Shown one piece after another: positions 3,197 through 63,134 of a stretch of DNA of 63,134 nt; within the stretch, counting starts at the first letter, position 1, and each line of letters begins with the position of its first letter. The stretch covers positions 1-63,134 of the IMG/VR virus record IMGVR_UViG_3300044946_000158; one strand, written 5' to 3'. The translations under genes and the position numbers were made by a program. The DNA comes from a virus. The notes beneath the pieces were generated by a model. The model saw nothing but the letters and a program-made list of their open reading frames with translations. It had not been told where the DNA came from and ran no database searches.

Positions 3197-3206
3197 GCGC
3201 AACAGG

Positions 3207-3295: not shown

Positions 3296-3316
3296 TTCTC
3301 TAGGATGGACGATGCA

Positions 3317-7022: not shown

Positions 7023-7294
7023 GAGACGCAATCGGCAACAAACTCCACGAAGGCGCACTCCTGTGGATGCAGCAATGGGGCTGCATCGCCAAGGTCACGC
7101 GATTACACGAAGGCGGCCTGTCGGTTGTCTCCGGCAACTCGCGGGAGGTCTCGCCGGCGGTCATCACTGTGGAGATTCAGATTCCCATCTCCATCGAGCC
7201 GGGCAAGGCGGGGCAGGAACCGTTGCTCAATGGAATCCTGTGCGTGCGCGATCCGCAGAGCGAGCGGGTGCTAGAGAGTGTCGTCAAGCAATGA
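7019..7294 (+). CDS. Small hypothetical protein upstream of the polymerase
   Basis: A 91-aa protein starting at ATG 7019, which overlaps the previous stop (ATGA). The upstream in-frame GTG at 7010 is less likely. Predicted mostly beta (GALLWMQQWGCIAKVTRLHE and following strands). It ends overlapping the polymerase start at 7291. Phage replication operons often hold such small beta proteins, but no function is known to me. Confidence 0.6.
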   Translation: MRDAIGNKLHEGALLWMQQWGCIAKVTRLHEGGLSVVSGNSREVSPAVITVEIQIPISIEPGKAGQEPLLNGILCVRDPQSERVLESVVKQ

Positions 7295-10200: not shown

Positions 10201-10299
10201 ATCTGCCCCGATGGCTTGGTGATTGATGTGGAAGCCGCATACGGACGCACATGGGCAATGATGGAGCCGTTGAACGTGAAACAGGAGGCCGTCGCATGA
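7291..10299 (+). CDS. Uracil-DNA glycosylase-like domain fused to family A DNA polymerase
   Basis: 1002 aa from ATG 7291 (overlapping the previous stop). An open extension to 6967 runs through two other genes. Residues 1-230 resemble family 4 UDG: CVGC near 10, GEASGEHE near 37, NCLRCRP, TQCRPNL and NFHPAF, with Cys positions fitting a 4Fe-4S site. The 3'-5' exonuclease keeps DIET (277), HN...FD (337) and YGCAD (about 407). Polymerase motif A is EWDYKSC (700). Motif B is KHAILGIGNG (near 776), with Leu at the E. coli Phe762 position. Motif C is QIHDAL (935). A CPACSGTG...CPACKG zinc knuckle (803-828) is inserted between B and C. There is no 5'-3' exonuclease domain. It is the replicative polymerase of the phage. 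Confidence 0.9.
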   Translation: MTARSKPDSCVGCPCFSMGTDFSEIEGTGSLGVMLVGEASGEHEQRDQLPFRPYAPAGGVLERVLRRMGVDRQQLATTNCLRCRPRNNWLEGAPWEFSALTQCRPNLDAAISSRKPRAIVALGGIATRELTGQAGEARGVTHLAGYVLPLMGGLRKVRHPCTESNEADGTHHPHCLLCGGEGWWETEEPAAASNAVPIIPNFHPAFIRRGKASHIGVFSRILQRAINIAKGTDKNWIWNVDPEVHSAQLGYRTRPTRQDAEDYATRLAALPAEELSYDIETSESASLDEDAREGFTNTQLELVQFSAGPLGSIAIPWRDEFKPTIQRLLHSPNPKCGHNVWLFDNKVLRAAGVREALDLTPKGIIHDTLAMFHHWQPDLPAHLQFAASFVQFPFPWKHLAGTNLPFYGCADVDATLRLYAMLEATLKRDGIWQGYMSQVYEVRPVLAAMESRGMPIDDAARVALGREFEIAQAEIGRKIAAQVPPDCGLIDVFAGLNPELRKWFIDHGTQPKFWQKHPQDEVCEMMVTPRYDDEGKCYHYEYRKVKVAGVDAAGEPCEVEESRWCRVWDFNPNSRPQVIAYMNAKGHPVPKDRHREDDDGNNPETTAEKELRRLANKTGDTFYLDVIEYRGMTKLRGTYVDGFAPGPDGCVHTTFTFGSAIAQLTSRNPNTQNFPKLKPTVALATAMRRMVAAKPGKVITEWDYKSCHVQTLGFLAEDLNYMRMGRLDIHSFVAGHFLNLWDGRKIIHESDDELRARFKWLKSDPERKRVRDDQAKHAILGIGNGLKARGLFERYMESFPPRPCPACSGTGKVPGVRGLKHCPACKGLAFIPGQRIAEEVLEICELLFTKVFEFQRREVKVAHEQQYLKTDFGHLRRFYEVFRWDPRKGAMAPGDQHEEAIAYRLANIAHAHLREAMKELGRRGLDEKYGMYNQIHDALQFHFDERLLDEHVQEIREVLVAPSKVLRHPTICPDGLVIDVEAAYGRTWAMMEPLNVKQEAVA

Positions 10300-10544
10300 T
10301 ACGCACACTGCTACTTTCCGCACTATTATTTCTCATTCCCGTCACGCTGATGCTGGCCCCGTCGCTGGTGAGTCAAGAAAAACCCTCAGAGAATAAAATA
10401 CTTATCCTTTGCGCACCGACCGACCTTGAGTCACAAGAACATCCCGTGCGCTTGTCCAGCCAAAGAATAGAAGCCTGCCTTTATACCCTAAAAAGCGGAG
10501 AAACTGAGATTAACAAATGCGGACTTCCTACGGTAAAAAAATGA
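10296..10544 (+). CDS. Small exported or membrane-anchored protein
   Basis: An 82-aa protein starting at ATG 10296 (ATGA overlap with the polymerase). Residues 4-24 (TLLLSALLFLIPVTLMLAPS) form a signal peptide or anchor. The rest is polar with three Cys, compatible with a disulphide in the periplasm. It is first in a run of exported proteins leading to the lysis genes, so a lysis or envelope role is possible. No family recognised. Confidence 0.6.
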   Translation: MIRTLLLSALLFLIPVTLMLAPSLVSQEKPSENKILILCAPTDLESQEHPVRLSSQRIEACLYTLKSGETEINKCGLPTVKK

Positions 10545-11083
10545 AAACTCTACTTGTAATCGCATTGCTTGCTATGCTGGCCGGAACCGTCAAAGCGGAC
10601 CAAACCTGGACCTACGCCGGGAACGCTATCGACTACGCCATAGGCACGAATCCCGGTCCTATCGGCCTGAACCCCTGCGGCTGCGCTCTGGACGGCACGC
10701 TCACACTGGACGCCAATGACACGGTTACGTCCTACAGCTTCACGGTAGGCGCAGACACGCTGACGCAGTTCAATTCCACAGGCTTGCTGGGCAAGGACCC
10801 GTTCGCCGTCTTCAATCCAGCCGATAACTACTTCCGCTGGGCCTTAAATCTCATCGGCGCGGACGGCACCGTAATGCATTCGCAATTCGATGGCTCTGTG
10901 AGTGACGCGATGGATTGGTCATCCAGCGGACTGTTCGTCGAAGCTGATCCGGGCACGTGGGCGGACCCGCTCGCGACGCCTGAGCCCGGCACGCTCGCGG
11001 TCTCGGCAATTGCGCTGGCGCTATTCGTTCTGGTGTACTACCATTCCACTCGAAGGGAGTCTTACACATGCAGATGCAAATGA
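10541..11083 (+). CDS. PEP-CTERM domain protein with signal peptide
   Basis: A 180-aa protein. Residues 1-20 form a Sec signal peptide (MKTLLVIALLAMLAGTVKAD). The body is a Gly/Asn/Thr-rich beta domain. The C-terminus carries TPEPGTL (PEP at about 147-149), an 18-20 residue hydrophobic helix, and then HSTRR. This is the tripartite PEP-CTERM sorting signal recognised by bacterial exosortase. ATG 10541 overlaps the preceding stop. An upstream ATG at 10517 would add eight residues before the signal. The tail runs nine residues beyond RR, longer than usual. The role may be superinfection exclusion or surface modification (inference). Confidence 0.75.
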   Translation: MKTLLVIALLAMLAGTVKADQTWTYAGNAIDYAIGTNPGPIGLNPCGCALDGTLTLDANDTVTSYSFTVGADTLTQFNSTGLLGKDPFAVFNPADNYFRWALNLIGADGTVMHSQFDGSVSDAMDWSSSGLFVEADPGTWADPLATPEPGTLAVSAIALALFVLVYYHSTRRESYTCRCK

Positions 11084-11682
11084 ACCGTCGTGAATTCACG
11101 GGCCACTTGGCTATGGGAGCATTTGTAGCGACTGCTGCTGTAGCTACCGCAGGAGTAACTTGTAACGTACCGAACTGGGTAGATACGGCTGTTAACGATT
11201 TGCCCACTATCCTAAATATTGCTACAACGGTCGCTACTATTGTGGCTAACGCGGCCACAGGCGGAGCGCTTACCCCCGCGATTGCCGCAATCATCGCCAC
11301 GGCGACAGCAGCGGTGAATGTCGCTATTCCAGTGATTCAAGACTTGATAGCGAAATACAAAGCCAATCCCACCGCAGGCATCATCGACAACATCAAGACC
11401 GCGCTGCTCGACGTGCAGAACCAGCTCGGGCAGATCCTCACCGCCGCGCATGTGGTCAACGCCACCTTGCGAGCCGTGATTACTACCTCCATGGGCCTCG
11501 CGATTGGCGTAATCACCGCGATTCTGTCACTCTTACCCGCGCCCGCTGTCGTGGCTGGGGCACTCAAGGCTCAGGCGGCCGCGCAATCCGGCTGGGTAAA
11601 GAATCCTACCAGCCCGACCACGATCAATGCCCAGCTTAATGCCTTCTTGCAAGCGAATGGCTACGGGAAATTCGTCCATTGA
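11068..11682 (+). CDS. Protein with twin-arginine-like (Tat) signal
   Basis: A 204-aa protein. MNRREFTGHLAMG (from residue 5) followed by a moderately hydrophobic Ala-rich stretch is a Tat-type signal, with RR at residues 7-8. The mature part is a series of Ala/Thr/Val/Ile-rich helices that could be membrane-active (about residues 50-85 and 140-170). GAAGGGAG precedes ATG 11068. Its start overlaps the PEP-CTERM gene by 16 bp. A Cys lies near the cleavage region (AGVTC) but the lipobox is poor. Location next to the endolysin suggests envelope action, unproven. Confidence 0.6.
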   Translation: MQMQMNRREFTGHLAMGAFVATAAVATAGVTCNVPNWVDTAVNDLPTILNIATTVATIVANAATGGALTPAIAAIIATATAAVNVAIPVIQDLIAKYKANPTAGIIDNIKTALLDVQNQLGQILTAAHVVNATLRAVITTSMGLAIGVITAILSLLPAPAVVAGALKAQAAAQSGWVKNPTSPTTINAQLNAFLQANGYGKFVH

Positions 11683-11888
11683 TAACGCTGACGCTCGCCG
11701 CCAGCCTGAACGATGACAAGTGTCTCGTGATGGAGGATGCCGTCCAGTTCTGTGCGACGGACTCCTCCCAGCCTAATACGGCCACGGTGATTTATTTCGA
11801 GTCCGGCGCGACGCTCTTGGTGAAGGAAACTCTGGAGGAGGTGCGCGATGCTATTTACAGGGAAACTACCCGCCCGGTTTCATCCTAA
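11679..11888 (+). CDS. Small beta-strand protein
   Basis: A 69-aa protein read from TTG 11679, overlapping the preceding stop (TTGA). The layout MITLTLAASLND...TVIYFESGATLLVKETLEEV is reminiscent of FlbD-like or other short 'xYFESGxxLxVKExxEEV' beta folds found in phages. This is a pattern resemblance only. The 3' end overlaps the next gene by 41 bp in another frame. Confidence 0.5.
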   Translation: MITLTLAASLNDDKCLVMEDAVQFCATDSSQPNTATVIYFESGATLLVKETLEEVRDAIYRETTRPVSS

Positions 11889-12615
11889 GACGCTCTGCGC
11901 CGAGCGCTACTTCGGGGAGGCTCTGCTGTCGCCTCCTACTGGCGCTCCTCCTGTACCTGAGAAAGTTTTCTGGGGCTATAAAATCCCCGCTGACCAGTGG
12001 CAAATGTTTGGGAACGACGTAGCGGGCGATTGCCCGATAGCCAAGACCTTCCACGCCATCATGAACTGGACCGCGCACACTGGCACGATGAAGACGTTTA
12101 CCAACCAGCAGGCTCTGGACATCTACACCGAACTGACCGGCTGGAATCCGCTTACTGGGGCCAATGATACCGGGCTAGTGCTGACCGACCTGTACGACCG
12201 CTGGCAGACCACTGGCATCTGCGGCGATAAAATCCTCGGCTGGATGGCCTTCAATCCCGCCGCGCCCAATCGCATTGAGCAGATCATTTGGGCGTGTGGG
12301 ATGGCCGATATTGGTATCCGCTTTCCCGACTCCGCGATGGTCCAGTTCAATGCTGGAGAAGCCTGGAGCGTGGTTCCTGGCACGCCGATGCCCGATGACG
12401 GCCACAATGTTCCGCTGTTCAACTTCGGCTCGGCAGGGTATCAGTGCGTAACCTGGTCCAAGCTACAAGCCATCCTGAAAGCGTTCATCGTGACCTATTG
12501 CGACGAAGCCTATGGTCCGATTCATGAAAGCTGGTTCGACATGACTACCGGCATGTCACCCAGTCATTTCAACCGCGACCAAGTGTGGGCGGATGTGAAG
12601 GCTCAGGCGGCATGA
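11848..12615 (+). CDS. Papain-like cysteine-protease-fold protein
   Basis: A 255-aa protein with a strong GGAGGAGG SD. NDVAGDCPIAKTFH (Cys62) and DDGHNVPLF (His186) are spaced as the Cys and His of papain/C39-like folds, and the first motif sits on a helix start as expected. Similar proteins are frequent in phages and environmental bacteria, but catalytic activity has not been shown to my knowledge. It overlaps the endolysin start (ATGA) and may form part of the lysis cassette as a second hydrolase, or be a surface-binding protein. Confidence 0.55.
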   Translation: MLFTGKLPARFHPKTLCAERYFGEALLSPPTGAPPVPEKVFWGYKIPADQWQMFGNDVAGDCPIAKTFHAIMNWTAHTGTMKTFTNQQALDIYTELTGWNPLTGANDTGLVLTDLYDRWQTTGICGDKILGWMAFNPAAPNRIEQIIWACGMADIGIRFPDSAMVQFNAGEAWSVVPGTPMPDDGHNVPLFNFGSAGYQCVTWSKLQAILKAFIVTYCDEAYGPIHESWFDMTTGMSPSHFNRDQVWADVKAQAA

Positions 12616-17468: not shown

Positions 17469-19501
17469 CAGGGATTCGCCTCTAGGTAGGCTTTCACCTT
17501 GGGACTCAGCGGTCGCGCATTAACTTGAGGTGGTGGTTGCGGCGCACCTTTAGCTGGAGCCACGCGTCCACCGACCAGCTCCGCAAACGAGTCGTGTGAT
17601 AGTGCGGTCGTGACCTCATCCTTCAGCCGATTAATTCTCTCGATGGCGTCCTGCGAGCTGGTCGTGTTTGTGGGATTCGGCAACTCGGACAGCAGCCGAT
17701 TCACAGTAGCCTCGGTAATTCGGCCACCACGTGATAATTTACCAAGACCGGAGATGGTCCCTGCGAGTTGTCGATATATCCGCAAGAATTCCTGCTGCTC
17801 GGGACTCGTGCCCATGGCTGCGAGCTTGGTCATGGCCTTGCCGAATCCAGTCTTGCCCTCACCAGTTGCGCCAATCATCGGCAACTGCGCGAAGAATCCG
17901 CGGTCCAGTGACTTAAGCGCGGGACTGGCAGCCGCTTCATTCAGATATCGCGTGGCCAGCGCAATCTGTGTCTTTTCCAGCGGCGTGAACTTGTCCTGCG
18001 ACCAGCCCCAGGTGCGCCGAGCCAAGGCCTCCGCGAGCGGCTTGGATTTCGCGGTCCCGCCGATCTCTTTCATATCCTTGCCGTCGTGGAGCTGATTGGC
18101 GGCTTCAATAACCTGCGGCGCAGCACCTTTCCAGTCGGACGCAATATGACCCTGCTCGTCAAGTGGTGGCGTGATGGATTGCGTGGTGGGGCGTGTAGCC
18201 GAACTACCACTCCCGCCACCACTAGGAGGAGTAACTTGCGGGGGAGGCGTGGGGCGGCGCGTGCCGCCGATGGTCTGCGTGCCACCACCAGCACCCGTTG
18301 CTCCAGTCACATTCGGCGTGTGCTGACTAACCGTCGTCTGTCCGGTGCTCGGGTCCGTAGTACGTGTGGTGGTACCAATCCTTTGTGGTCCCAGCGCCGT
18401 GCCTTTAGTCGCTAAATCTGCCGTGTTATATTCAGGGATGGTGTATGTCACGCCTCCTACGGAGACTTGTTTCATTTTCTGGTTGGCGGTCCCGTAGCCT
18501 ACCACCCGCCCGTTCTGCTGTAAGGGGATGATCATCATGTCATCGCCATACTTGCCCAGATTTAGATTCCCGTCCTCATCGGCCTCAGCAGGGTCAGCGG
18601 CCTTGAACACAATACCTTGCTCCTGTAGCTTGCGGGCCTCGGCCATGGTTTTGGGTTGCATAGCGGTGGCGCGGCCTGTAGGATTAGCAGCCTTTAGTTT
18701 TAGGGCTTCAGCCTGCTCCTCCATTTTGAACTTGTGCGCGAGAGTATGTTCGGCGGTGTAGGCGTCCACTTTCTTTTTAAGTTCGCGCTGGTCCTGTCGC
18801 TCCTCTTCCTGCTTGGCCCGCAGCCGTGGAGCTTCCATCCGCGCGTCTAAGGGCGGGGGCGGCTGCGGCCTGCTAGATGCCGAAGGGTCCTGGCTGGGCA
18901 CTTTTGGGCTCGGCGGCTGGCCTGCACCCCCGCCGCTGGCTGCGAGATTCGTGGGATTCGTGCCTGCCACCGTGCTCGGGAGATTATTCGGCAGCGGCCC
19001 GCCCCCGGGACCCATGGCGCTAGCGTTTAGCTGCGGCGGAGGCGGAATCCCCGGCTGCGCAGCCTTTGCCCCCGGACCCTGTGAAATCGCATGGTCGATC
19101 AGCGTCACGTGTTTATTCACCATGTCCTTGGTGGCCGGGTCCTTGCCTCCGCTCTTGATATACGCGGCTTTCGACGCGTCATACATACCTTGAAACTGTT
19201 GCCTACGCTCAGGCGTGAGCGGGGGATGCTGGCCATTCGCGTCGGCCGGGAGATCCGGGTCCTGCCCGCTATGCAATATCGCGCCATAGGTGGCCATGTT
19301 GCGCTGATTCAACTGCACCTCCGCGAGCCGCTGAGCGTGCTGCTTGTCCATGGCGTCGGTCAGCGGATTTTTCGTGCCGTGTCCGCCGAGACCGGATATC
19401 ACCTGCCCCGCCGCGCCGAGCACGCGTTCCTTGGGCGTAGGGTCTATACTCGTCTGCGCACCATCATACTGCGGCGGCGGGGTCATCTGCGGATCGGGCA
19501 T
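17468..19501 (-). CDS. Putative virion/ejection protein B
   Basis: A 677-aa Pro/Gln/Gly-rich protein. Disordered N-terminal third with repeated PPP and PPQ segments, a charged helix (about residues 225-270), a beta region, then a helical C-terminal domain from about 460 (DEQGHIASDWKGAAPQVIEA). The large size, low complexity and position between two similar virion-like genes support an internal or ejection role. It shares one base with the next gene (17468). The start near 19501 has AAGGAGT upstream. Confidence 0.5.
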   Translation of the reverse strand: MPDPQMTPPPQYDGAQTSIDPTPKERVLGAAGQVISGLGGHGTKNPLTDAMDKQHAQRLAEVQLNQRNMATYGAILHSGQDPDLPADANGQHPPLTPERRQQFQGMYDASKAAYIKSGGKDPATKDMVNKHVTLIDHAISQGPGAKAAQPGIPPPPQLNASAMGPGGGPLPNNLPSTVAGTNPTNLAASGGGAGQPPSPKVPSQDPSASSRPQPPPPLDARMEAPRLRAKQEEERQDQRELKKKVDAYTAEHTLAHKFKMEEQAEALKLKAANPTGRATAMQPKTMAEARKLQEQGIVFKAADPAEADEDGNLNLGKYGDDMMIIPLQQNGRVVGYGTANQKMKQVSVGGVTYTIPEYNTADLATKGTALGPQRIGTTTRTTDPSTGQTTVSQHTPNVTGATGAGGGTQTIGGTRRPTPPPQVTPPSGGGSGSSATRPTTQSITPPLDEQGHIASDWKGAAPQVIEAANQLHDGKDMKEIGGTAKSKPLAEALARRTWGWSQDKFTPLEKTQIALATRYLNEAAASPALKSLDRGFFAQLPMIGATGEGKTGFGKAMTKLAAMGTSPEQQEFLRIYRQLAGTISGLGKLSRGGRITEATVNRLLSELPNPTNTTSSQDAIERINRLKDEVTTALSHDSFAELVGGRVAPAKGAPQPPPQVNARPLSPKVKAYLEANP

Positions 19502-19513
19502 TGGCTCACTCCT

Positions 19514-20131
19514 TTAAGCAAATAACGAGAATACTCCCAGCAGCGCATCGCTCGTGTTCGCGAGCGTCGCCGCGTTCTGAGCCTGGTCGTTCTTGCGCGC
19601 GTCTATGGAATTGGTGGTCAGATTAGCGTTAGCCGTCTCGCCCACGCCGAGCAACTGCGCAGCGTCAGCGGTCTCCGCCGTGCCGGTGGACGCCAGCGCC
19701 TTGCTGGTATCCGCCACGCCCTTGGCGCCCTCACTCTGCGCGCCGAATAGTAAATTATCAATGTCGGCCATCTGCTTGGTCTTGGCATCCGCGTTGACAC
19801 TCGCAGTCCCGCCGCCGCGAGCCGTGCCGCTAGCGTCCGCTTGCTTGCGACTAGCGTCCGCCGCGCTGGCCTGCTGATTCGCGACCGGAGCGATCGCCTG
19901 CTGCGTCGCGGTGCGGTTGCCGCTCATGAGCTTCTGATAATAATCGAGCGACTGTCCGAGTCCGCTGGCACCCGCTGCGGTCGTGGCCGCACCCGTGGCT
20001 GCCCCGGCTTCGGCCGTGGGCAACGCGAAATTAAACAGGTTCTTCGAATTCGTGAAGCCTTGCAGGGTATTCGTGCGGTCGGTCTTGCTGGACCCGCCGC
20101 CGCCGAATATCGAATTGACCAGTCCGCTCAT
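19514..20131 (-). CDS. Putative virion/ejection protein A
   Basis: A 205-aa Ala/Gly/Thr-rich protein from ATG 20131 (MSGLVNSIFGGGGSSK). The open extension to 20245 overlaps the GNAT gene and lacks an SD. N-terminal 'SIFGGG' followed by long alanine-rich helices is common in small internal virion proteins of podoviruses. Its start overlaps the preceding gene's stop. It is the first of three consecutive ejection-like genes. Confidence 0.5.
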   Translation of the reverse strand: MSGLVNSIFGGGGSSKTDRTNTLQGFTNSKNLFNFALPTAEAGAATGAATTAAGASGLGQSLDYYQKLMSGNRTATQQAIAPVANQQASAADASRKQADASGTARGGGTASVNADAKTKQMADIDNLLFGAQSEGAKGVADTSKALASTGTAETADAAQLLGVGETANANLTTNSIDARKNDQAQNAATLANTSDALLGVFSLFA

Positions 20132-20529
20132 TCGACCTCCAACCCACCGGGGTCGCCCATGACATATACAGGCTCGTCTAGTCGCTTCATTCCGCGTGCC
20201 TCGCACAACTTTTCCGAATGGCGATTGGCGGCGGTGGTAATCCATCCCCGTGCTTTCGCGTCAGTGAGAAACGTAAGCATCTCATCCGCGAGTTCTCCGG
20301 CGATAGTCGTGCCGCGATATTCCGGCCTCACATACAGAGGGCCGCAAAATGGGACCAGCTGGAACACATGGAACCCGATAATCTGGCCCGCTTCTTCCTT
20401 GACGAGAATGCGCGACGTGGCTCGATTAAGGCTCATCCATCCCCGCGACGCGAGCATCTCCTCGATAGCATCCCAGTCTTCCTGCGATGCGGTCGGCCCG
20501 TCTATCCAGCGCGTGGTTATGTCATTCAT
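20128..20529 (-). CDS. GNAT-like N-acetyltransferase domain protein
   Basis: A 133-aa protein from ATG 20529, overlapping the spike gene stop (ATGA). The core reads IIGFHVFQLVPFCGPLYVRP, then EYRGTTIAGELADEM, the R-G-x-x-x-A/G acetyl-CoA loop of GNAT folds, followed by a helix and a terminal strand. Phages often carry such a domain within the tail or ejection gene cluster. The substrate is unknown. Candidates are a host protein, tRNA or polysaccharide. Family call moderate, activity unproven. Confidence 0.6.
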   Translation of the reverse strand: MNDITTRWIDGPTASQEDWDAIEEMLASRGWMSLNRATSRILVKEEAGQIIGFHVFQLVPFCGPLYVRPEYRGTTIAGELADEMLTFLTDAKARGWITTAANRHSEKLCEARGMKRLDEPVYVMGDPGGLEVE

Positions 20530-23315
20530 TTTATGGTCACCGTGATTTCCAGTCCCCCCGGCACAGTCAGCACATAATCCCCCTTGGCCAGTCCGGGAAG
20601 AGACACCATGGCCGCAGATAGCGGCATCTTGCACTTGGTCACGCCCGGCCCGTAGCTGCTGCAGGCCATCGCGAATACCCACGGCAACGGCGCCGGCACA
20701 GGACTCACCGCTACGCCTGTGCCGGTGAGCGTAGTGGAAGCCGTGGCGCTACTGGACCCATTGACCGTGAGTGTGGCGGTCTCGGCTCCCGCGAGGCTCG
20801 GCTTGAACGTCAGGATGATAATACACGTCTGACCCGCCGTCAGCACTAGTCCATTCGTGCAAGTTCCGGTCGCGGTATCGGTCCAGTCCGCAGCGTTCGT
20901 CCCCGACAGTACACTCTTCGGCGTGGCCAGCGTGACGCTCCCGGTGCCCGCGTTGGTCACCGTCGCAGTCGTGGCCGCGCTCACTTGCCCCACGGTTACC
21001 GCGCCGAATAACATGGTCGGCGTCGGCGCGATGGTCAGCACGAACGTGGGCGCTTGTCCGTTTACCGTCAGGCTGGCGCTGGCGGTCGCACTGGTAGCCG
21101 ACAGCGTCACTGTTGCTGATTCCGCTCCACCAGTACTGGGCGTAACCTGCACGCCTTTGTTGCAGGTCTGCCCCGGCGTAAGCACCTGTCCACCTTGGCA
21201 ATTGTTGGTCGCGGCACCTAATGAGAAATCCGCCGCATTGGGACCCGAGAACGTGGTCGTAACTGGCGCGGCCAAGGTCACGTTTATATTTCCCGTGTTG
21301 GTCAGCACGAAAACCTCGACCGCGCTGGTGGTACCCTGCGGCACCGTGCCGTAGCTCCAAGTCCCCGGTGTGAGGCTCATGGACGCGCTTCCCGCGCTGG
21401 TGCCCGTGCCCGTGAGGCTCACCGATCCCGAGGCGTTTCCGTTTATCGTTAGCGTGGCCGATTCCGCTGCCGTCGTCACCGGAGTGAACACCACTAGCAC
21501 CGTACAACTCCCACCGGGCGTCACCGTTCCGTTATTGGCGCAGGTCCCGCCCGAGCGCACGAAGTCTGCCGCGTTCGCACCGGAGAAGGTATAAAACGAT
21601 GCCGACAGCGTCAAGTTGGCGGTGCCAGAGTTCGTGACTGTGACCGTCAGTGGCGATGACGAGGTATTCTGTGTCTGGTTGCCGAACGCGACCGGACTAG
21701 GTGTGATGCTGACCGCCGGGGAGCCGCCACCGCTGCCGTAATTCACCGCTCCCACGGTAACCGTTCCGCTGCCACGAGCGTTTCCATTGATGTCCAGCGG
21801 CAGATACGTCGCCACCGCCGGGATGCCAGAGCCGCTCGCTAAGGAATTTAGATTCGTGCCCATGACTACCGCTGAGTTTCCAGGCACGAAGGTGGTGAGG
21901 TTCACGGAAGGATTGGTGCCGCTTAGTGAGTTGGCATCACAGGAACAGAAACTCTTCCAAGTGGTAAAGCTGGTAGTGAATCCGCCAGTATAAGCCCACT
22001 GCGCCAAAGGACTAGAGTAGTACAGATTGTAGTTAGCGGTCGGAGCGTTAGTGTTGCCACCATTATAAAAATAGTATCCGCCGCCGCTTTGCAGGATGTT
22101 GTTTTCCTCCGTCCAGCCGGTGCCGAATTCCATATTGAATAGCGGCCATGCGTTGTTGTTATTCCCGCCCGACCCGGCGTCGATGATGGTATTGTTGAGC
22201 AGGTATCCGTTATTGATTCCCAGCGGAGCCACGACGCCGTTGGCCGTCGCCACATCCGTATTGGTTTTGTAGAAAACGTTGTTGAATACCCACCACGGAG
22301 CCATTGTTCCGCCGCTGCCACCGTTGTTGTTTTCCAAGTAAATCATCGAGGTGGGATGCAGGCCCACGTCCCCGATACTGAAATTGTCGAAGAAGGTCAG
22401 ATTCCCGGCGAACGCCGCCCCTGGATGTCCGGTGAAGGGATGGAAGAAATTGTGGTGGTAATTATTGGTGACATCGTCCCAGTTGCGCGAGGCGTTGTAG
22501 GTGTTGTGGTCCACCTGCATGTTGGTCAGTACTTTCGTGCCGGTGTCGGTCGGTCCGCCCTCGATGGCTTGGTTGGCGTTATTGAAAGTGTTCCCGGTAA
22601 TGACCAGATTGGATTCGCCGCCTGTGAACGCGAAGAATATGCATACGTCGCAATCGGTAAAAGTATTTCCGGGTCCGACAGTAACGTTGCTGCCGCCTTG
22701 CAGGACCCGAACTCCCATGCAGTCGTCGCTGCCGTTGGAGCACACGCTGTCGGAAGTGGTGTTGTTGTGCACGTACACGGGGCCAAGATGTAGATGTTCA
22801 ATTTGAATGTTCGATGAGCCAAAGGCATCAACCATAGAGCTAATTTGCTGATTGGCGAGGCCCGTGCCGTTGGCGGTATTTCGGACGATACCGTTCGTGC
22901 CGCCGTCGATCACCACCCAGTTGTGCCCGTTGGTCTCGATAGCTCCTGGCGTGCCGTTACTAGTAGAGAAATACGGGGCCTGTACGATGGCGTTGGTGTC
23001 CCATTTGAGGGTAATCAGGTGTCCACTAGTGCCATCACCCTGAAAAGAAAATACGTTGGTAGCTCCTGCCGCAAAGGTGAATGTTCCGCAGATAAGTACT
23101 GTTGTGCCCGGCCCGATCTGCCCCGCACCAGTGCCCCAATTCGCAGACGTGTTGAAGAACGCTGGCGTTTGCACGCTAGTGGTACACGCGCCGGATGCCG
23201 CACCGGACTGCGTAATATAAATGTTCGCGGCCTGCCCACGCGCTCCCGCCGCCGCTGCGAGTGCCACTGCAACGAGTACGAAGGCCTTAAGACTGCAGGA
23301 AGCAGCTTGACTCAT
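20526..23315 (-). CDS. Secreted-type tail spike: beta-helix plus three choice-of-anchor-D-like domains
   Basis: A 929-aa protein. Residues 1-28 form a Sec signal peptide (SLKAFVLVAVALAAAAGARG). Residues 30-530 are Asn/Gly/Thr-rich repeats typical of a right-handed parallel beta-helix. From about 545 come three roughly 100-residue Ig-like units with SITPSPVAFGNQTQNTSS, TVTNSGTANLTLS and FSGANAADF...SCTVLVVFTP signatures, as in choice-of-anchor-D/ASH domains of environmental bacteria. A C-terminal cap ends in TVTIK. The beta-helix suggests polysaccharide binding or cleavage. A signal peptide is unexpected for a cytoplasm-assembled tail spike. Confidence 0.65.
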   Translation of the reverse strand: MSQAASCSLKAFVLVAVALAAAAGARGQAANIYITQSGAASGACTTSVQTPAFFNTSANWGTGAGQIGPGTTVLICGTFTFAAGATNVFSFQGDGTSGHLITLKWDTNAIVQAPYFSTSNGTPGAIETNGHNWVVIDGGTNGIVRNTANGTGLANQQISSMVDAFGSSNIQIEHLHLGPVYVHNNTTSDSVCSNGSDDCMGVRVLQGGSNVTVGPGNTFTDCDVCIFFAFTGGESNLVITGNTFNNANQAIEGGPTDTGTKVLTNMQVDHNTYNASRNWDDVTNNYHHNFFHPFTGHPGAAFAGNLTFFDNFSIGDVGLHPTSMIYLENNNGGSGGTMAPWWVFNNVFYKTNTDVATANGVVAPLGINNGYLLNNTIIDAGSGGNNNNAWPLFNMEFGTGWTEENNILQSGGGYYFYNGGNTNAPTANYNLYYSSPLAQWAYTGGFTTSFTTWKSFCSCDANSLSGTNPSVNLTTFVPGNSAVVMGTNLNSLASGSGIPAVATYLPLDINGNARGSGTVTVGAVNYGSGGGSPAVSITPSPVAFGNQTQNTSSSPLTVTVTNSGTANLTLSASFYTFSGANAADFVRSGGTCANNGTVTPGGSCTVLVVFTPVTTAAESATLTINGNASGSVSLTGTGTSAGSASMSLTPGTWSYGTVPQGTTSAVEVFVLTNTGNINVTLAAPVTTTFSGPNAADFSLGAATNNCQGGQVLTPGQTCNKGVQVTPSTGGAESATVTLSATSATASASLTVNGQAPTFVLTIAPTPTMLFGAVTVGQVSAATTATVTNAGTGSVTLATPKSVLSGTNAADWTDTATGTCTNGLVLTAGQTCIIILTFKPSLAGAETATLTVNGSSSATASTTLTGTGVAVSPVPAPLPWVFAMACSSYGPGVTKCKMPLSAAMVSLPGLAKGDYVLTVPGGLEITVTIK

Positions 23316-45480: not shown

Positions 45481-47736
45481 CTATCGGAAGCGTTCCAATC
45501 GCGAATCGCTGTACACGAGGTCCAGCAAATCTACGCTCTTGCCCTCGCTCAGTTGCGAGGCCGAGTACATATGCGCGCCGGTATTCGGCGTCAGGTCAAT
45601 CGGCGGGAGCGCCTGACTGGCCGCCGGGCCGCGCTTTAAGGAACGTTGCGCCAAGATGTCTTGGTCATGAGGGCAGAACACCGCCATCGCAGCCGCGAAA
45701 ATGCGGTCATCATGTTCGCCTTCTTCGTGTTCCATCTTTTCCTTGCCGGAGGCAGTGATAGTGACCTCGAACGTCTTCATTTCCTCAATGAGCCATGGAG
45801 AGTTAATCTTCATCCAGCCGTTCTGCGCGGAGTTCTTGAAATTGCCAAGGAGAATAGGTCGCGACCATGACCATGTATACCAGCCGAGTTTAGTGGCGCG
45901 AGATTTTGACACGCGCTTCTGGTCGTATCGCGTGAAGCGATGAAAGTTCGAATAGCCCATCTTACGCATCTGATGCTGCGCAGTGTCGCCCACGGCTGCT
46001 ACCTGCTCAATGGATACGTAAGGCTCTTTCCAGCGGGTAGTGCCGACCTCCATGAACTGGCCATAGTACGCCGCAATAGCCAAGATAAACGAGAACGCCT
46101 CTACATGATTTACGTAGGGCGAGCCGAACTCGGCGCATTGGATGTCGGGATCACCGCGCCGACCAATGGCCCACACTGAAATAGCAGTAGCATCCAAGCC
46201 TCGGCCCTCGGAGGTATCAACACCGATGCTATAAGACATGTTCGGGCGCGGCGGGTGGAAGACGATGAGTTTGCCGACGGCATGATCGAGGTTGGTGGGA
46301 TCAAGGGGATGATGCGCGAGCGGGTCCCCTTTGTAGCCGTCGAAAATCAGGGGGATAAGTTCCCAGCGATAGGTTTCCTTGTGGGACACATACTTAACCG
46401 GCACACGCGCGGCGCTATAGTCGATATCCGCAGGGTCCGGCTCGTGCGCTTCCTCAATGGACTGGCCGCTGATTCCGTAAGCGGTATATTGGCGTACCCG
46501 CTCGGTCTCAATGACTTCAATGGTCTCGTGGCCGAATGCCGATTCCGCGCTGCGTTGAAGGGCGTCAATGTCATCACCAGCCATTTCCTGTAGAAATTTT
46601 CCCTCCACTCCCTTGTACTTGGCCTCAGCGTGATTCCACTCCCAGAACCACTGCTGGTCTAGAGGCATCTCCCAATACGGACCCTTAAATATGCCACGAC
46701 GCTTCTGGTCCGCAATGAGATACTTTTCAAGCAGGGGATTGGAGCGCACGTACAAGGTGGCCTTCGCAACGTGCGCAGCGGTATCGCGGTCGGGATGCCA
46801 GTGCGAGGGAATAGGCCGAGTGCGCCGATCTGTTTCAGTTGGGTATATATCGACTCCTGAAAACCATGGCAGGAACATCGGGAACATGCGCGAGTGTGGC
46901 CATTCTTTCTTGGAGTAATACCACGTACCCGCCCACCAGCCTTTGTCGCCGCGTCCAGTGGATTCAAGAACGCCGAATACGCGTGGTGAGGCATGGACAG
47001 CCTTCCACAGGCCCTCGTCGATGAGCATGCTTGCGGCGTCGCCATAGAGTGCAACCTCCGAGAGGTGATAGGAGATAGGTGTGCTGCCAGTGGCGATACC
47101 AAACTTTTGCGAGCCGTGCTGAAAGCTGATGGAAGAGGCCGTGGCTCCGAAGATGAGGCGTCCACGGTCGCCTTCGACGCGTGTTGTAGGAGTCGGACGC
47201 AACCACACCGGGAGCATATCGAGGCACAGCAGCATCATGCGCGACATCTCACCAGTTTTCGTCTGGTCCGCCGAGCCGATGACCGCGCCCACACCGGAAT
47301 AGAAGAACACGCGATGTGAGATTAGGAGTTCCGAGAAGATGGAGACGCCGAGTTGCCGCGCCTTCAGGGCCATGATTTCAATGGCAAATCCACGCTCCTC
47401 AAGGTCGCAGATGATATCGAAGTAGATACGTTGCGGAACTCGGAACTGGAAGCGTTGAATCACACCTTGTTCGTCACGTAGGAAAGCGTAGCGCGTGAGG
47501 AAATATGCACAGTCGCATGCACAGAGGGCTTGTTCATTCTGAATCCACCTTACTTCCGTCGCGGTGAGATTCTGCGTCGTGGCAGGGCGGCCCTGCGCGT
47601 CCAGCGCGTACTTGCCCTCTTTCAGGAGGTGGGCTTCGAAACGGATGACTTCGTCGACGGACTTGTAATCGAGGGGGAAGCCCAGCTCGCGCTCGGCGAG
47701 TTCGATGCGTTCGCGGACGCGGGATTCAGAGTACAT
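45481..47736 (-). CDS. Terminase large subunit
   Basis: A 751-aa protein. The ATPase domain has the terminase-type Walker A KARQLGVS (residues 125-132), followed by VIGSADQTKTGEM and HLSEVALYG (Walker B region, with acidic residue). The nuclease domain has IGVDTSEGRGLDATAISVW (near 505) and the later acidic residues AAVGDTAQHQM and EHDDRIFAAAMAV. The order matches phage TerL, which translocates DNA into the prohead. It is preceded by the DUF6527-like gene. Confidence 0.9.
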   Translation of the reverse strand: MYSESRVRERIELAERELGFPLDYKSVDEVIRFEAHLLKEGKYALDAQGRPATTQNLTATEVRWIQNEQALCACDCAYFLTRYAFLRDEQGVIQRFQFRVPQRIYFDIICDLEERGFAIEIMALKARQLGVSIFSELLISHRVFFYSGVGAVIGSADQTKTGEMSRMMLLCLDMLPVWLRPTPTTRVEGDRGRLIFGATASSISFQHGSQKFGIATGSTPISYHLSEVALYGDAASMLIDEGLWKAVHASPRVFGVLESTGRGDKGWWAGTWYYSKKEWPHSRMFPMFLPWFSGVDIYPTETDRRTRPIPSHWHPDRDTAAHVAKATLYVRSNPLLEKYLIADQKRRGIFKGPYWEMPLDQQWFWEWNHAEAKYKGVEGKFLQEMAGDDIDALQRSAESAFGHETIEVIETERVRQYTAYGISGQSIEEAHEPDPADIDYSAARVPVKYVSHKETYRWELIPLIFDGYKGDPLAHHPLDPTNLDHAVGKLIVFHPPRPNMSYSIGVDTSEGRGLDATAISVWAIGRRGDPDIQCAEFGSPYVNHVEAFSFILAIAAYYGQFMEVGTTRWKEPYVSIEQVAAVGDTAQHQMRKMGYSNFHRFTRYDQKRVSKSRATKLGWYTWSWSRPILLGNFKNSAQNGWMKINSPWLIEEMKTFEVTITASGKEKMEHEEGEHDDRIFAAAMAVFCPHDQDILAQRSLKRGPAASQALPPIDLTPNTGAHMYSASQLSEGKSVDLLDLVYSDSRLERFR

Positions 47737-52190: not shown

Positions 52191-52202
52191 GCTAGTTCCT
52201 TG

Positions 52203-52245
52203 GAGGGGGCTCCACAACAGGCGGTTGGCAGCCGCCAGCCCCCTC
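52203..52245 (-). promoter_or_regulatory. Late-operon leader hairpin
   Basis: Read on the minus strand, GAGGGGGCT (52245-52237) pairs perfectly with AGCCCCCTC (52211-52203). Inside it GGCGG (52236-52232) pairs with CCGCC (52224-52220). An 8-base bulge lies on the 3' side. CAAGGAAC and ATG 52190 follow at once, so the structure borders the SD of the first minus gene. Confidence 0.6.
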
Positions 52246-52790
52246 ATTACACACTACTTACAGGCAGCCTAGCATAGTATTCGCGAAAATGTCAAGTGAA
52301 AGGTTAACCTCCAGCATGCCAATTGCGGTCGCGATGGTAGCGGGAAGGGTAAAAATATAAAAAATGTGCGCGTACAGACCGGCGGGGCGTGGCGCCGCCA
52401 TCTCGCCCCCTCATCCCGGACAACTCGCGGCCTATGACTATCAGGACCATTGGTACGCATAGTACGCATAGTAGGACCAGTACCATCAGTACCGATTGCG
52501 TGTGTGCGCGGGGGATCGCGGGGGCGCGTCGCGTCGGTGACGCCGGGCGCGGGTGACCCGGCCGGCGCTGGGGGACAAGCGGTCAGCCACGGACGGACCT
52601 AGCACACATGGTACTAGTACTACCGTGCCCACTAATGGGCATGATCACAATTTGCGGACACGTCCCCTCCCATCCCACACAACTTGTCATACCGTGTCTT
52701 TTACACCACAAGTTTGTTGTATTGTTACCACACTGGCGGTGACACTTTGCGTCTACATGCATTATTATTGTACTTATTCGCATTTTGTGC

Positions 52791-52820
52791 TTGACACGCC
52801 GTATGTGGTGAGCGCATTAT
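52791..52820 (+). promoter_or_regulatory. Candidate promoter of the right early arm
   Basis: Exact TTGACA (52791-52796) and CATTAT (52815-52820) separated by 18 bases, upstream of the leader peptide and first gene of the plus-strand arm. Best -35/-10 pair in the control region. Confidence 0.5.
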
Positions 52821-52886
52821 GTGGGAGTACGGTAATTGCAGTCCTTGATTGTACGCGGTTCATGATAAGCAGCACTTGGAGGCACA

Positions 52887-52916
52887 ATGACACGCTCTGT
52901 TATTTGGGGACGCTAG
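52887..52916 (+). CDS. Possible 9-aa leader peptide
   Basis: GGAGG (52877-52881) is correctly spaced from ATG 52887, which opens MTRSVIWGR and stops at TAG 52914-52916, four bases before the first structured leader element. The strong SD with so short a frame suggests a leader peptide coupling ribosome position to the hairpin. It could also be chance. Confidence 0.3.
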   Translation: MTRSVIWGR

Positions 52917-52919
52917 GCC

Positions 52920-52969
52920 GAGTTAGCAGCATACGCCATGCGTGCGCGTGTGGCGTGCGAAGTTAACTC
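52920..52969 (+). promoter_or_regulatory. Structured leader element, copy 1
   Basis: GAGTTAGC (52920-52927) pairs with GTTAACTC (52962-52969), one G-U, enclosing ACGCCA (52933-52938) paired with TGGCGT (52951-52956). GGAGG of the next gene follows at 52971. Confidence 0.65.
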
Positions 52970-52982
52970 TGGAGGCGCAATC

Positions 52983-53198
52983 GTGATAAGCATACATGAC
53001 AAACTATTACACGCGGTAACGGAGTACGATCGCAAGCAAAGCACGAAACGCGGCTATAACGTGTGGGCCTTGCCTCAGTACTTGGGGGCAATCAATGAAC
53101 GTGTTATTCCCGCAATCGAGCAAGGCGTGCCAATTCGCAAGGCCATTCTGCGGGGATTCTGCGGGGATTCTGCGGGCGATTGGCTACGGTATGCCTGA
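52983..53198 (+). CDS. Small conserved phage protein, first gene of right arm
   Basis: 71 aa from GTG 52983 behind GGAGG. The in-frame ATG 52938 lies within the leader hairpin. Sequence pattern LLHAVTEYDRKQSTKRGYNV then LPQYLGAINERVIPAIEQGV and AILRGFCGD matches a common phage group ('...Y..r...kr.yNpyALg.YL..v......G....AI..gF...'). Function unknown. The 3' end has a tandem 11-base repeat (GGGGATTCTGC). Confidence 0.6.
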   Translation: MISIHDKLLHAVTEYDRKQSTKRGYNVWALPQYLGAINERVIPAIEQGVPIRKAILRGFCGDSAGDWLRYA

Positions 53199-53264
53199 AA
53201 GCGGTAGGTGAGACGGCTATCACTATCGAGGAATCGCGCGGGAGCCTATCGGATTACGGCTATT

Positions 53265-53322
53265 GAGTTAGCAGCATCGTGTCCCTCGCGCGCGGGTGCG
53301 GGGGATAGGGTGAAGTTAACTC
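53265..53322 (+). promoter_or_regulatory. Structured leader element, copy 2
   Basis: GAGTTAGC (53265-53272) pairs with GTTAACTC (53315-53322). Inner stem CCCTCGC (53283-53289) with GCGGGGG (53298-53304), one U-G. GAGGAGG follows at about 53327. Confidence 0.65.
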
Positions 53323-53338
53323 TTTTGAGGAGGCGACA

Positions 53339-53737
53339 ATGTACGATTCACTAGGAACGATTCGCGAGTTTAAGACACGCAACTTTCGCGTGGTAGTGGA
53401 TGCCATACCAGAGGAGTACCTAGACCTGTCGTTTGATGACACCGGCGAAGTGGCACGCAAACTGGATAATGGCACGTTTATCGCGTTTGTGGCGCGTGCA
53501 CGCGTGTTTCTGCGTGGGAGCGAGGTCGGAAGCGATTATCTTGGAGGGTGCATCTACGAATCGCTGGACGCATTCCAAGACCATATCGAATGTGGCAAGC
53601 AGAATCGCAAATGGGAGAGGCAAGGTAAGGAAGGGCGTTGTGGGAGCTACTTCCACCAAATGATTAACGAAGCGTGCGCGGAGGCAAGGAAACACGTCGC
53701 GGAACTGGCAAGCGTGCGTGTACGCAAGGCGAGTTAA
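53339..53737 (+). CDS. Conserved phage protein
   Basis: A 132-aa protein. FKTRNFRVVVDAIPEEYLDL, then SFDDTGEVARKLDNGTFIAF, GSDYLGGCIYESLDAFQDH, and a C-terminal helix with SYFHQMINEACAEARKH. The layout (beta sheet with 'LsfDd.g', 'G.dyLGgCiYes', 'GSYf..mv.eAi.eAR') recurs in many phages. Function unknown. GAGGAGG SD, located between two structured leaders. Confidence 0.7.
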   Translation: MYDSLGTIREFKTRNFRVVVDAIPEEYLDLSFDDTGEVARKLDNGTFIAFVARARVFLRGSEVGSDYLGGCIYESLDAFQDHIECGKQNRKWERQGKEGRCGSYFHQMINEACAEARKHVAELASVRVRKAS

Positions 53738-53787
53738 CCGCTTCACGCGCCCGCGCACGGTCGGGGGGCGCGTGGGGAAGTTAACCC
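53731..53787 (+). promoter_or_regulatory. Structured leader element, copy 3
   Basis: GAGTTAAC (53731-53738, containing the upstream stop TAA) pairs with GTTAACCC (53780-53787), one mismatch. Inner stem CACGCGCCC (53744-53752) with GGGCGCGTG (53766-53774) is 9 bp perfect. A second hairpin, GTGCCC/GGGCAC (53796-53814), lies between it and the SD. Confidence 0.65.
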
Positions 53788-53826
53788 AAAGGGCCGTGCC
53801 CACCTAACGGGCACAGAGGAGATAAC

Positions 53827-54627
53827 ATGGTCTCAAATCAACCGATGGATAATTACCAGATACAGCGGTTCGCGCCGTCAGTATTCGCGGGTCAACCGTC
53901 ATTACGCCAGTCTGATCGTTATGCGTTCATCCCTACTATCGACGTGGTGGAAGCGATGCGTGCAGCCAGCTGGAACGTGGTGATGGCTAGCGAATCGCGC
54001 ACGCGGGATGAGCAACGCAAGGGGTACACCAAGCATATGTTGCGGTTCCGGCCCGCGAACGTATCACTCGCTACCGTTGGGGATTCGATCATCGAAGTGG
54101 TGTTGATTAACTCTCACGACGGCTCTAGTCAATATTCGCTGCAAGCTGGCGTGTTCCGCCTAGTTTGCTCTAACGGCATGGTAGTGGCCGATTCGCTGGT
54201 GGATGCGATTAAGGTCAGGCACACGGGGAATGTTATCGACATGGTGGTGGATGGCTCCGCGCGGATTTTGGAGAATGCGCCAGTCGTACAGAACACTATC
54301 CAATCCTGGAAGCAAATCACACTCACAGCGGGCGAACAGCAATTGCTCGCGGAGGGTGCTCACACGTTGCGATTCGAGGATGAGACCGCAATTCAGCCCG
54401 CACAACTGCTTAGGCCACGACGCTACGGTGATAACGGTTCGTCGCTCTGGAACACGTTCAACCGGATTCAAGAGCATGTTATCAAGGGTGGCGACCGTGC
54501 GTACGATTCGCAGGCGCATCGTCGCGTGCGCAGTCGCGAGGTCAAGAATATCGACGGCAACACGAAGCTCAACAAGGCTCTGTGGTCGCTAGCAGAGGGT
54601 ATGGCTAAGTTGAAATTGGCCGCATAG
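53827..54627 (+). CDS. DUF932-like phage/plasmid protein
   Basis: A 266-aa protein with a GAGGAGAT SD. RYAFIPTIDVVEAMRAASWN, KGYTKHMLRFRP, EVVLINSHDGSSQYSLQAGV then FRLVCSNGMVV are the hallmarks of the DUF932 family ('...HmvRf.......g....ElvlvNSHDG...y.l..G.fRlVCsNGlvvg'). The family occurs on phages and plasmids, function not established, possibly linked to DNA recombination. The helical C-terminus is the usual size. Confidence 0.85.
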   Translation: MVSNQPMDNYQIQRFAPSVFAGQPSLRQSDRYAFIPTIDVVEAMRAASWNVVMASESRTRDEQRKGYTKHMLRFRPANVSLATVGDSIIEVVLINSHDGSSQYSLQAGVFRLVCSNGMVVADSLVDAIKVRHTGNVIDMVVDGSARILENAPVVQNTIQSWKQITLTAGEQQLLAEGAHTLRFEDETAIQPAQLLRPRRYGDNGSSLWNTFNRIQEHVIKGGDRAYDSQAHRRVRSREVKNIDGNTKLNKALWSLAEGMAKLKLAA

Positions 54628-54683
54628 TGACCAGTCTCCGGCCCATGCCGCATCCCTGAGCGTGGGCCGGGGGAAGTTCACTC
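54626..54683 (+). promoter_or_regulatory. Structured leader element, copy 4 (diverged)
   Basis: AGTGACC (54626-54632, within the DUF932 stop) pairs with GTTCACT (54676-54682), one mismatch. Versus copies 1-3 both arms changed together (TTA/TAA to TGA/TCA). Inner stem GGCCCATGC (54640-54648) with GCGTGGGCC (54660-54668). GAGGAGG follows. Confidence 0.55.
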
Positions 54684-54703
54684 GCGGTACTGAGGAGGCA
54701 AAC

Positions 54704-55600
54704 GTGAATCTATCGAGCGTCACGAGGTACGCGCGAGGCAAGGCGCCGTTTATCGGCATTCCTTACCTCAGCGTGGCAGAAGGGAAGTATCAGACGGCGG
54801 TGTTTCACCGTCAGCACCTGTCCGCGTTTCTGACCTGTCCGCAACTGACCACGGCGAAGTATGACGAACGCGAGCACCTGCTAGTTTTGAGTGGGAGCAA
54901 GGGACGGTTACGCGCGGAGTACCGCCTGAAGGACCTGCGGGCGTTCGATGGCGGGCGGGTGTGGCAGGTCCGTAGTGCACACGAAACATGGGCGAGGGGC
55001 CAGCGCACGTCGGCGGTCAAACGCAACCTGTCGCCGGAAGCGCGCAAGGTCATCAAGTTGGAATTTGAGATTGGCAAGCTGGAACGCAAGCGTGAGCGGG
55101 AGTTTTTCAACCTGAGCGTGCCGCGTAGTCCCATGCTGCCCAGATTATACGGGCCAGCGTCCGACAGTCACCGTAAGCAAGAGCGGCGATGGCATGATGA
55201 GAAGCCCGTGCGCCAGCGTCTCGGATGGCTGGCCCATCGCACCCGCAAGACTTGGGCAGAGTTCTACTGCGACGCGGAGGCCATTCTCGGGCGTCCGATT
55301 GATTCCTTGCGGCGGCATGATCGGGTGTGCGGTCGCAAGTGCGGGCCGGACCGTCTCGACTACCTGAAACACTTCGCAAAGTATCTGGGCATGGCTGACA
55401 AGCCGTATCGCTCGAATCAGTGGGACCCACTCGAACGTGAGAAGTACGGGGAGCACTTCGGCAAGACTCAGGTGGAAGTTCACCGTCACGCGCAGATTGA
55501 ATATCTAGATAAGTTACACAGGCGGGCCGCGCTAGACGATGAGATTGCCAATATCCGCAGCATGATCGCGGACCTGCAAGTTACGGAGGTAACACAATGA
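54704..55600 (+). CDS. Hypothetical protein with basic helical segments
   Basis: 298 aa from GTG 54704 behind GAGGAGG. The open extension to 54662 overlaps the leader. N-terminal beta part (GKAPFIGIPYLSVAEGKYQT), then charged helices (KVIKLEFEIGKLERKREREF; DYLKHFAKYLGMADK) and a C-terminal coiled coil. No family recognised. Could be nucleic-acid binding. Overlaps the next gene by ATGA. Confidence 0.6.
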   Translation: MNLSSVTRYARGKAPFIGIPYLSVAEGKYQTAVFHRQHLSAFLTCPQLTTAKYDEREHLLVLSGSKGRLRAEYRLKDLRAFDGGRVWQVRSAHETWARGQRTSAVKRNLSPEARKVIKLEFEIGKLERKREREFFNLSVPRSPMLPRLYGPASDSHRKQERRWHDEKPVRQRLGWLAHRTRKTWAEFYCDAEAILGRPIDSLRRHDRVCGRKCGPDRLDYLKHFAKYLGMADKPYRSNQWDPLEREKYGEHFGKTQVEVHRHAQIEYLDKLHRRAALDDEIANIRSMIADLQVTEVTQ

Positions 55601-55797
55601 GCGACACACAGGCGGCGGGGCATCGCATTAAATTATCAGGGGCACAGGTCACGCGCGTGCAGGAAGCGCTCACGCGCTATCACGAAAATTGTCGGACCAC
55701 TGACTATGACACGAAGGCCGCGTACATCCCCCCGCAGATCGCTACGGAAGACTTGGTAAACGACATTCTCGACGTGGTGATGGCGGTGCAATCGTGA
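55597..55797 (+). CDS. Small helical hypothetical protein
   Basis: A 66-aa protein opening MSDTQAAGHRIKLSGAQVTR, helical, acidic. Its SD (GGAGG) lies in the loop of a small hairpin GTTAC-GGAG-GTAAC (55580-55593). Overlaps both neighbours. Function unknown. Confidence 0.55.
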   Translation: MSDTQAAGHRIKLSGAQVTRVQEALTRYHENCRTTDYDTKAAYIPPQIATEDLVNDILDVVMAVQS

Positions 55798-62806: not shown

Positions 62807-63045
62807 GCGAGCACACGACAAAGCTGGAAAGCGGAGCCGTAAAGGTGATTCTTGATCTCAACTTTTTAGAGTTGTTTGGGGATGACCGCGAATTGGTGTG
62901 CGGAATCATTGATTTGATTCAGGCTTATGAGAAGAAACACCAGCAGAAGTCCGCACTAGAAGCCGCTGATGGCGATAGTGACCAACGCTCGACGGCACAG
63001 ACCGATTTACCCCCAAAAACGGACTTTGAGGAGCGCAAGCGATGA
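62803..63045 (+). CDS. Small helical hypothetical protein
   Basis: An 80-aa protein. LESGAVKVILDLNFLELFGD then VCGIIDLIQAYEKKHQQK, ending FEERKR. No family known. Its stop overlaps the start of the gene at 35 across the circle. Confidence 0.55.
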   Translation: MSEHTTKLESGAVKVILDLNFLELFGDDRELVCGIIDLIQAYEKKHQQKSALEAADGDSDQRSTAQTDLPPKTDFEERKR

Positions 63046-63134
63046 CCTTTGAAGAGACGCCGTTTAACAAGTGGTTCAAATCCTATGAGCCGATTAAGTT
63101 CTATCCTGGTAGAGAAATAGACGCGCAAGCCGCT
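63008..63134. repeat. Terminal direct repeat, right copy (contains the start of the gene at 35)
   Basis: Identical to 1-127. From 63042 it repeats the first 93 bases of the gene at 35-415, which is therefore complete only when the ends are joined. Treat 63042-63134 as the same locus, not a second gene. Confidence 0.95.

Follow-up and report, generated by a model that had tools for sequence, protein, structure and literature searches.

The 63134-bp contig analysed here, which belongs to a soil phage and which we call the window, carries four hairpins, H1 to H4, at successive stop-to-SD junctions near the start of a rightward operon. These are very probably functional RNA hairpins, and together with their counterparts in related phages they constitute a modular RNA element of gene boundaries, as opposed to a DNA operator or a riboswitch specific to one gene. 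Action at the RNA level has good support; the mechanism is an inference.

Four hairpins at the first junctions of a phage operon

The window contains an exact terminal direct repeat of 127 bp (1-127 and 63008-63134) and is therefore probably a complete, circularly assembled genome. The sole relatives of its portal protein in the phage collection belong to the Tunturiibacter phages Tunturi_1 and Tunturi_2 (35% identical), and because the hosts of these phages are Acidobacteriota (PMC11924767), the host of the window phage may be an acidobacterium as well. Elsewhere in the genome, a 1110-aa protein (6967-10299) has a uracil-DNA glycosylase domain (139-319) joined with a DNA polymerase domain of family A, and the 751-aa terminase large subunit (45481-47736) matches its families in far-apart pieces and could carry an insertion such as an intein. 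A gap between same-direction genes (3197-3304) holds two hairpins (3207-3291) whose sequences are unrelated, one of them among the strongest plus-strand folds.

The coding strand switches at ~52.3-52.9 kb, where a rightward operon of small, tightly packed genes starts. Its first junctions are looser, with gaps of 65-89 nt, and these four gaps contain the four hairpins: those between a 9-codon ORF and gene 1, genes 1 and 2, genes 2 and 3, and genes 3 and 4. The hairpins stop after gene 4, which the following gene overlaps. Gene order suggests that the hairpin-bearing genes are transcribed as a polycistronic mRNA. A possible early promoter ahead of the operon (TTGACA, 18 nt, CATTAT; 52791..52820, plus strand) matches the consensus at 10/12 positions; the call is tentative because such matches are no more numerous than in shuffled sequence.

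The genes themselves, all on the plus strand, are diverse. The predicted 9-codon upstream ORF (MTRSVIWGR; 52887..52916) has its own SD, TTGGAGG, and terminates at TAG 52914-52916, 3 nt before H1. Gene 1 (52983..53198) starts with GTG and encodes 71 aa as read, with no known family. An 11-bp direct repeat, CTGCGGGGATT, at 53148 and 53159 (53148-53176) divides it into two frames, and the second frame, entered via the repeat, runs to TGA 53264-53266 at H2; the split could reflect genuine frameshifting or an error in the sequence or its assembly. A homologue search with gene 1 returned no relative, its similarity to a gene of the related phage G029 being not significant (score 31). Gene 2 (53339..53737; 132 aa) has a weak phrog_5644 match, gene 3 (53827..54627; 266 aa) encodes a DUF932 protein (Pfam PF06067, E 1.6e-41; phrog_12094), and gene 4 (54704..55600; 298 aa) has no known family.

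All four hairpins reported in the first-pass annotation of this DNA were present, at 52920..52969 (H1), 53265..53322 (H2), 53731..53787 (H3) and 54625..54683 (H4) on the plus strand, with folding z-scores against dinucleotide shuffles of -4.4, -9.0, -2.7 and -4.4, respectively. H2, with 24 bp, folds more strongly than any other 64-nt stretch of the window, whichever strand is taken. Each hairpin comprises a lower stem of 8 positions, a 2x2 internal loop, an upper stem of 12-17 positions and an apical loop. The lower stem pairs GAGTTA(G/A)C with GTTAAC(T/C)C and, in copy 4, TAGTGACC with GTTCACTC. The internal loop between the two stems, unmentioned in the annotation, is conserved as (A/C)G opposite AA; in H1 it reads AG and AA, flanked by GAGTTAGC and GTTAACTC, and in H3 CG and AA. 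The upper stem has a different sequence in each of H1-H4. Searched across the 63134-bp contig, the 3' arm GAAGTTMACYC has exactly four sites, all on the plus strand within 1.7 kb.

The position of the hairpins relative to the genes is equally regular. Each lies at most 4 nt from a stop codon or includes one: TAG 52914-52916 and TGA 53264-53266 adjoin H1 and H2, H3 encloses the gene 2 stop TAA 53735-53737, and H4 starts at the gene 3 stop TAG 54625-54627. The SD begins ~1, 4, 28 and 8 nt past H1, H2, H3 and H4, so that the SD is indeed close behind each hairpin, as had been claimed, but at a distance of ~1-28 nt and not of up to 41 nt.

Pairing is retained while the upper stems diverge

Across the upper stems of H1-H4, 46/48 cells are paired compared to a shuffle mean of 33.2, the observed count being reached in 0/5000 shuffles, and two-sided changes occur at 8/12 positions. 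The upper stem is kept by pairing, not by sequence, in agreement with the earlier observation that the inner stems differ yet pair. The same annotation had pointed to covariation in the outer arms of copy 4. The T-A to G-C replacement there is compensated, but two mismatches lie in the same arm, which makes this weak evidence alone. The lower stems of H1-H4 by themselves show one compensated pair, three mismatches (two in copy 4, one in copy 3) and one G-U/A-U difference, a score equalled by 1267/5000 letter shuffles.

The two strands also differ. On the mRNA strand, H1-H4 contain 13 G-U pairs versus 2 A-C mismatches, and the mRNA strand is more stable than its complement in 21/21 folded copies from the window and its relatives; for H1 the values are -27.0 and -16.6 kcal/mol. 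Both the G-U excess and the more stable mRNA strand of H1-H4 are expected if selection acts on the transcript and not on the DNA.

The element recurs in related phages

A portal-based search provided 22 loci of related phages, plus 58 via alignment. The window's own 3' arm, GAAGTTMACYC, is not a repeated element in these relatives: it occurs in 0/25 records of the first set, and the second set has four scattered matches in 3/47 records. Relatives were also searched by a sequence-blind rule consisting of a stop codon, a two-part hairpin with a small internal loop, and an SD plus start codon, which found 23 elements in 724 kb of relatives versus 1 in reversed sequence. Reversed sequence is a lenient control, as it contains no real gene junctions; hence each real stop-to-start junction was also shuffled. 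By this measure phage G012 has 10 junctions with a hairpin against 0.1 expected, two pairs of counts sharing one hairpin, the other relatives have 12 against 2.0 expected, and the window has 2 against 0.4 expected under the identical strict rule. H1 and H4 are uncounted under that rule because the ORF ahead of H1 is too short and H4 has too many lower-stem mismatches.

The copies share position and two-part architecture and fall into two types that differ in the loop. Type I, the window's type, is also present in G029 (L245 from 216) and G038. The G029 hairpin, CTAGCCAC AG TCTCAAGCCCA..TGGGCTTGGGG AA GTGACTAG, reads as plainly related to H4, TAGTGACC AG TCTCCGGCCCA..TGGGCCGGGGG AA GTTCACTC, with which we take it to be homologous; two adjacent pairs differ in both partners. 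In G038, two copies have a common lower stem, CTAACTGC, a common loop, CG/GA, and upper stems that are unlike. Type II, with loop GCTN opposite NATGG, occurs in phages G012, G010, G013 and G015; G012 alone carries about ten copies, at almost every junction of its early operon, with an internal loop different from that of the window. Pair counts, inflated for the relatives since their copies were selected by a pairing rule, are 126/133 cells with two-sided changes in 17/19 pairs for seven type I copies (H1-H4, G029 and two from G038), and 96/96 cells with two-sided changes in 13/16 pairs for six type II copies (five from G012, one from G010). When partners in the type I alignment were slid by 1-3 positions, paired cells fell to 37-51. 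The common loops, the common lower stems within genomes and the similarity of H4 to the G029 hairpin are features free of this selection.

A covariance model of type II, R1, detected further copies, none of them used to train it, in G015 (E 2e-5), G013 (0.002) and, weakly, G018 (0.04), and gave no report for H1-H4 at E <=5; the window copies are therefore a distinct loop type. The lower stem is almost one sequence within each genome and another sequence in other genomes. The proposal of an RNA-level family recurring among phages is thus borne out by elements of the same kind, with extensive covariation, in related phages; conservation of DNA sequence only, or a lack of covariation in homologous phages, was checked for and is not the case.

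Type I elements with GAAGTTNAC arms were absent behind 70 DUF932 relatives, and no copy of the hairpin element was found in Tunturi_1. Across viral contigs the strict arm pattern had 0 matches and a relaxed one 38, of which the 14 best-folding, having no comparable inner hairpin, amount to a chance control; a pattern for the type II loop matched phage G012 only. Like the structured RNAs of Rfam, the element lies upstream of genes and covaries. The Rfam scan suggested in the annotation was run with Rfam 15 on the window and five loci with related elements, and no family reached the gathering threshold, with chance-level scores only. A literature search, with most subscription journals outside it, found no published description of the hairpin elements, and the RNA element is apparently undescribed so far.

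Several other structures were seen near gene starts in these phages. In two unrelated phage contigs, a hairpin with a type-II-like loop (GCTN / NGTGG) directly follows the DUF932 stop codon (L008, 5855-5905; L023, 4470-4525), in L023 with the start site AAGGGGGA after it; these are tentative, as the rule behind them also yielded 5 matches in reversed sequence. In the syntenic relative G003 (L080 reverse complement, 19555-19660) a different strong hairpin stands after the DUF932 stop codon. Ahead of the SD, the sequence GGGGGCAGTGAACTGAAACTGAAGAGG is similar to the 3' portion of H4, as though this were the same junction and its hairpin had diverged. In G012 (L102 reverse complement, 8570-12170) almost every early gene is preceded by a hairpin and a repeated start-site sequence, often GCACTCAAAGGGGGA, and in G038 (L193 reverse complement, 19080-20670) the string GTTAGATCAA followed by an SD stands at several gene starts, whether a full hairpin is present or not. 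On the minus strands of Tunturi_1 (L180, PP887698.1 44000-63169) and Tunturi_2 (L257, PP885685.1 44000-63277), the SD itself lies inside a small hairpin loop, NNNNC-TGGGAG-GNNNN. Tunturi_1 has 8 such hairpins (7 in the last 19 kb) and Tunturi_2 has 6, all on the early-operon strand and mostly 4-12 nt ahead of the start codon; their stem sequences differ and all pair.

The element lies at gene boundaries irrespective of the gene

The first-pass annotation had described the hairpins as tandem structured leaders. They are not leaders of particular genes: the elements precede mutually unrelated proteins and occupy stop-to-SD junctions, which suggests a generic gene-boundary device. Among 21 translated sequences behind elements, no pair reached the similarity score cut-off, so the element is no single-pathway regulator. 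The SD lies outside the hairpin, and masking the 5' arm caused no consistent change in SD accessibility, which was unchanged for H2-H4 and varied with folded length for H1. Intrinsic terminators, taken as a G+C-rich stem followed by a T run, numbered 0 in 52200-55700 versus 3.1 expected from shuffles, and this role was rejected.

Proposed processing of the early transcript and its rivals

The hairpins would mark gene boundaries in an early polycistronic mRNA, and RNase III-type processing or stabilisation is the likeliest, though still tentative, candidate for their main role. RNase III, or another enzyme or protein acting likewise, would cut or bind the irregular helix of ~20 bp. The early transcript would thereby be split into units, each protected at its 3' end and with its 5' end set beside an SD, and every gene could be translated and decay independently. 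Consistent with this are the stop-to-SD position, the covariation, the generic use of junctions, most extensive in G012, the absence of a terminator and the unmasked SD.

We favour processing because a ~20-bp helix with a small internal loop between early cistrons recalls the RNase III sites of phage T7. The early mRNA of T7 has five processing sites, of which R1.1 is known as a 60-nt substrate (PMC4858673). As in T7, irregular hairpins of ~50-60 nt lie between early-operon cistrons, before unrelated genes (PMC4858673), and in the window too they separate cistrons of what gene order indicates is one polycistronic mRNA. Unlike the T7 sites, those described here have a stop codon in or beside the lower stem, a lower stem that is near-identical per genome, and an SD within 28 nt. 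No RNase III gene was found among the window proteins tested with Pfam, and a host enzyme must therefore be assumed. The main difficulty for processing is the near-fixed lower stem of each genome. RNase III has a weak sequence preference, so this constancy is unexplained unless the copies are recent duplicates or have been homogenised by recombination.

Mainly because the lower stem is nearly fixed, a dedicated RNA-binding protein has to be taken seriously as a rival, although we judge it unlikely. Such a protein, phage-encoded or from the host, would read the lower stem and the 2x2 loop and repress or activate several early genes together. The lower stem and loop are common within a genome and different between genomes, as if coevolving with a phage-specific partner, and the SD is close behind the hairpin. 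However, the elements precede unrelated genes, in G012 almost all genes of the operon, the upper stem is free to vary, and no candidate protein was recognised among the window proteins tested.

A role as translation insulators, another live rival, is also unlikely; in this case the helix would fill the intercistronic gap so that a terminating ribosome neither slides nor reinitiates, the gap attracts no Rho, and a fresh start is made at each SD. This would account for a stop codon inside or beside the lower stem in 4/4 copies, for a hairpin that takes up most of a 65-89 nt gap, and for an SD whose accessibility is largely independent of the hairpin. In E. coli, Rho-dependent termination at the end of a cistron results when the next gene fails to be started (PMC9239205). 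Any strong hairpin would do for this purpose, however, which leaves the common lower-stem sequence and the conserved internal loop unexplained.

Inverted-repeat DNA operators are very improbable. The arms GAGTTARC/GTTAACYC form an imperfect DNA palindrome, and GTTAAC is itself palindromic. A precedent exists in the closest repeats described so far, the start-associated sequences with extended inverted repeats (SAS/ESAS) of Cluster K mycobacteriophages, inverted repeats in one orientation just before the starts of several non-structural genes, with a consensus common within a subcluster and different between subclusters, for which the departures do not support RNA pairing and DNA binding was favoured by the authors (PMC3203893). 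The window elements resemble them in standing just before several gene starts and in having a group-specific consensus. In contrast to ESAS, pairing in the window hairpins is kept by two-sided changes; the G-U bias of the mRNA strand and the fixed position between stop codon and SD likewise speak against DNA operators. The 13-bp SAS, GGGATAGGAGCCC, has 2 matches with 2 mismatches in the window against 1.27 expected, none near the hairpins. The stoperators of mycobacteriophage L5 (Cluster A) are also short repeats at gene junctions in a single orientation, but they are asymmetric 13-bp DNA repressor sites; the stoperator sequence GGTGGMTGTCAAG has 5 window matches with 2 mismatches against 2.7 expected, a chance level, and none at the hairpins. 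A mobile inverted-repeat element, covered by the same low estimate, was rejected, since pairing survives in interiors that differ and inspection by eye showed no duplications at the flanks.

A three-segment switch would let the upstream ribosome set whether the 3' arm pairs with the 5' arm or with a downstream segment near the SD; it is highly improbable and unsupported in the window. In several G012 copies the 3' arm has a complementary segment downstream, clearly above shuffles in two (p 0.004 and 0.006), but H1-H4 have none (p 0.34 to 1.0) and masking the 5' arm has no consistent effect on their SD.

Implications for the phage group

Including the relatives extends the finding beyond four hairpins of one contig, to a recurrent RNA element of a phage group that has been little studied. 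One speculative reading, which we regard as rather improbable, is that a modular RNA punctuation mark, placed between stop codon and SD ahead of unrelated early genes, is in use across a clade of soil phages. The lower stem would be each phage's own password, common to its copies, and its reader an RNA-binding protein or a processing enzyme specific to that phage; sets of early genes would then be controlled post-transcriptionally with no cross-talk between related phages. If the lower stem is such a phage-specific recognition code, the element would add a new case of post-transcriptional control exerted on a whole operon through repeated RNA elements, and it would also be relevant to the start-associated repeats of other phages, which lack an explanation so far.
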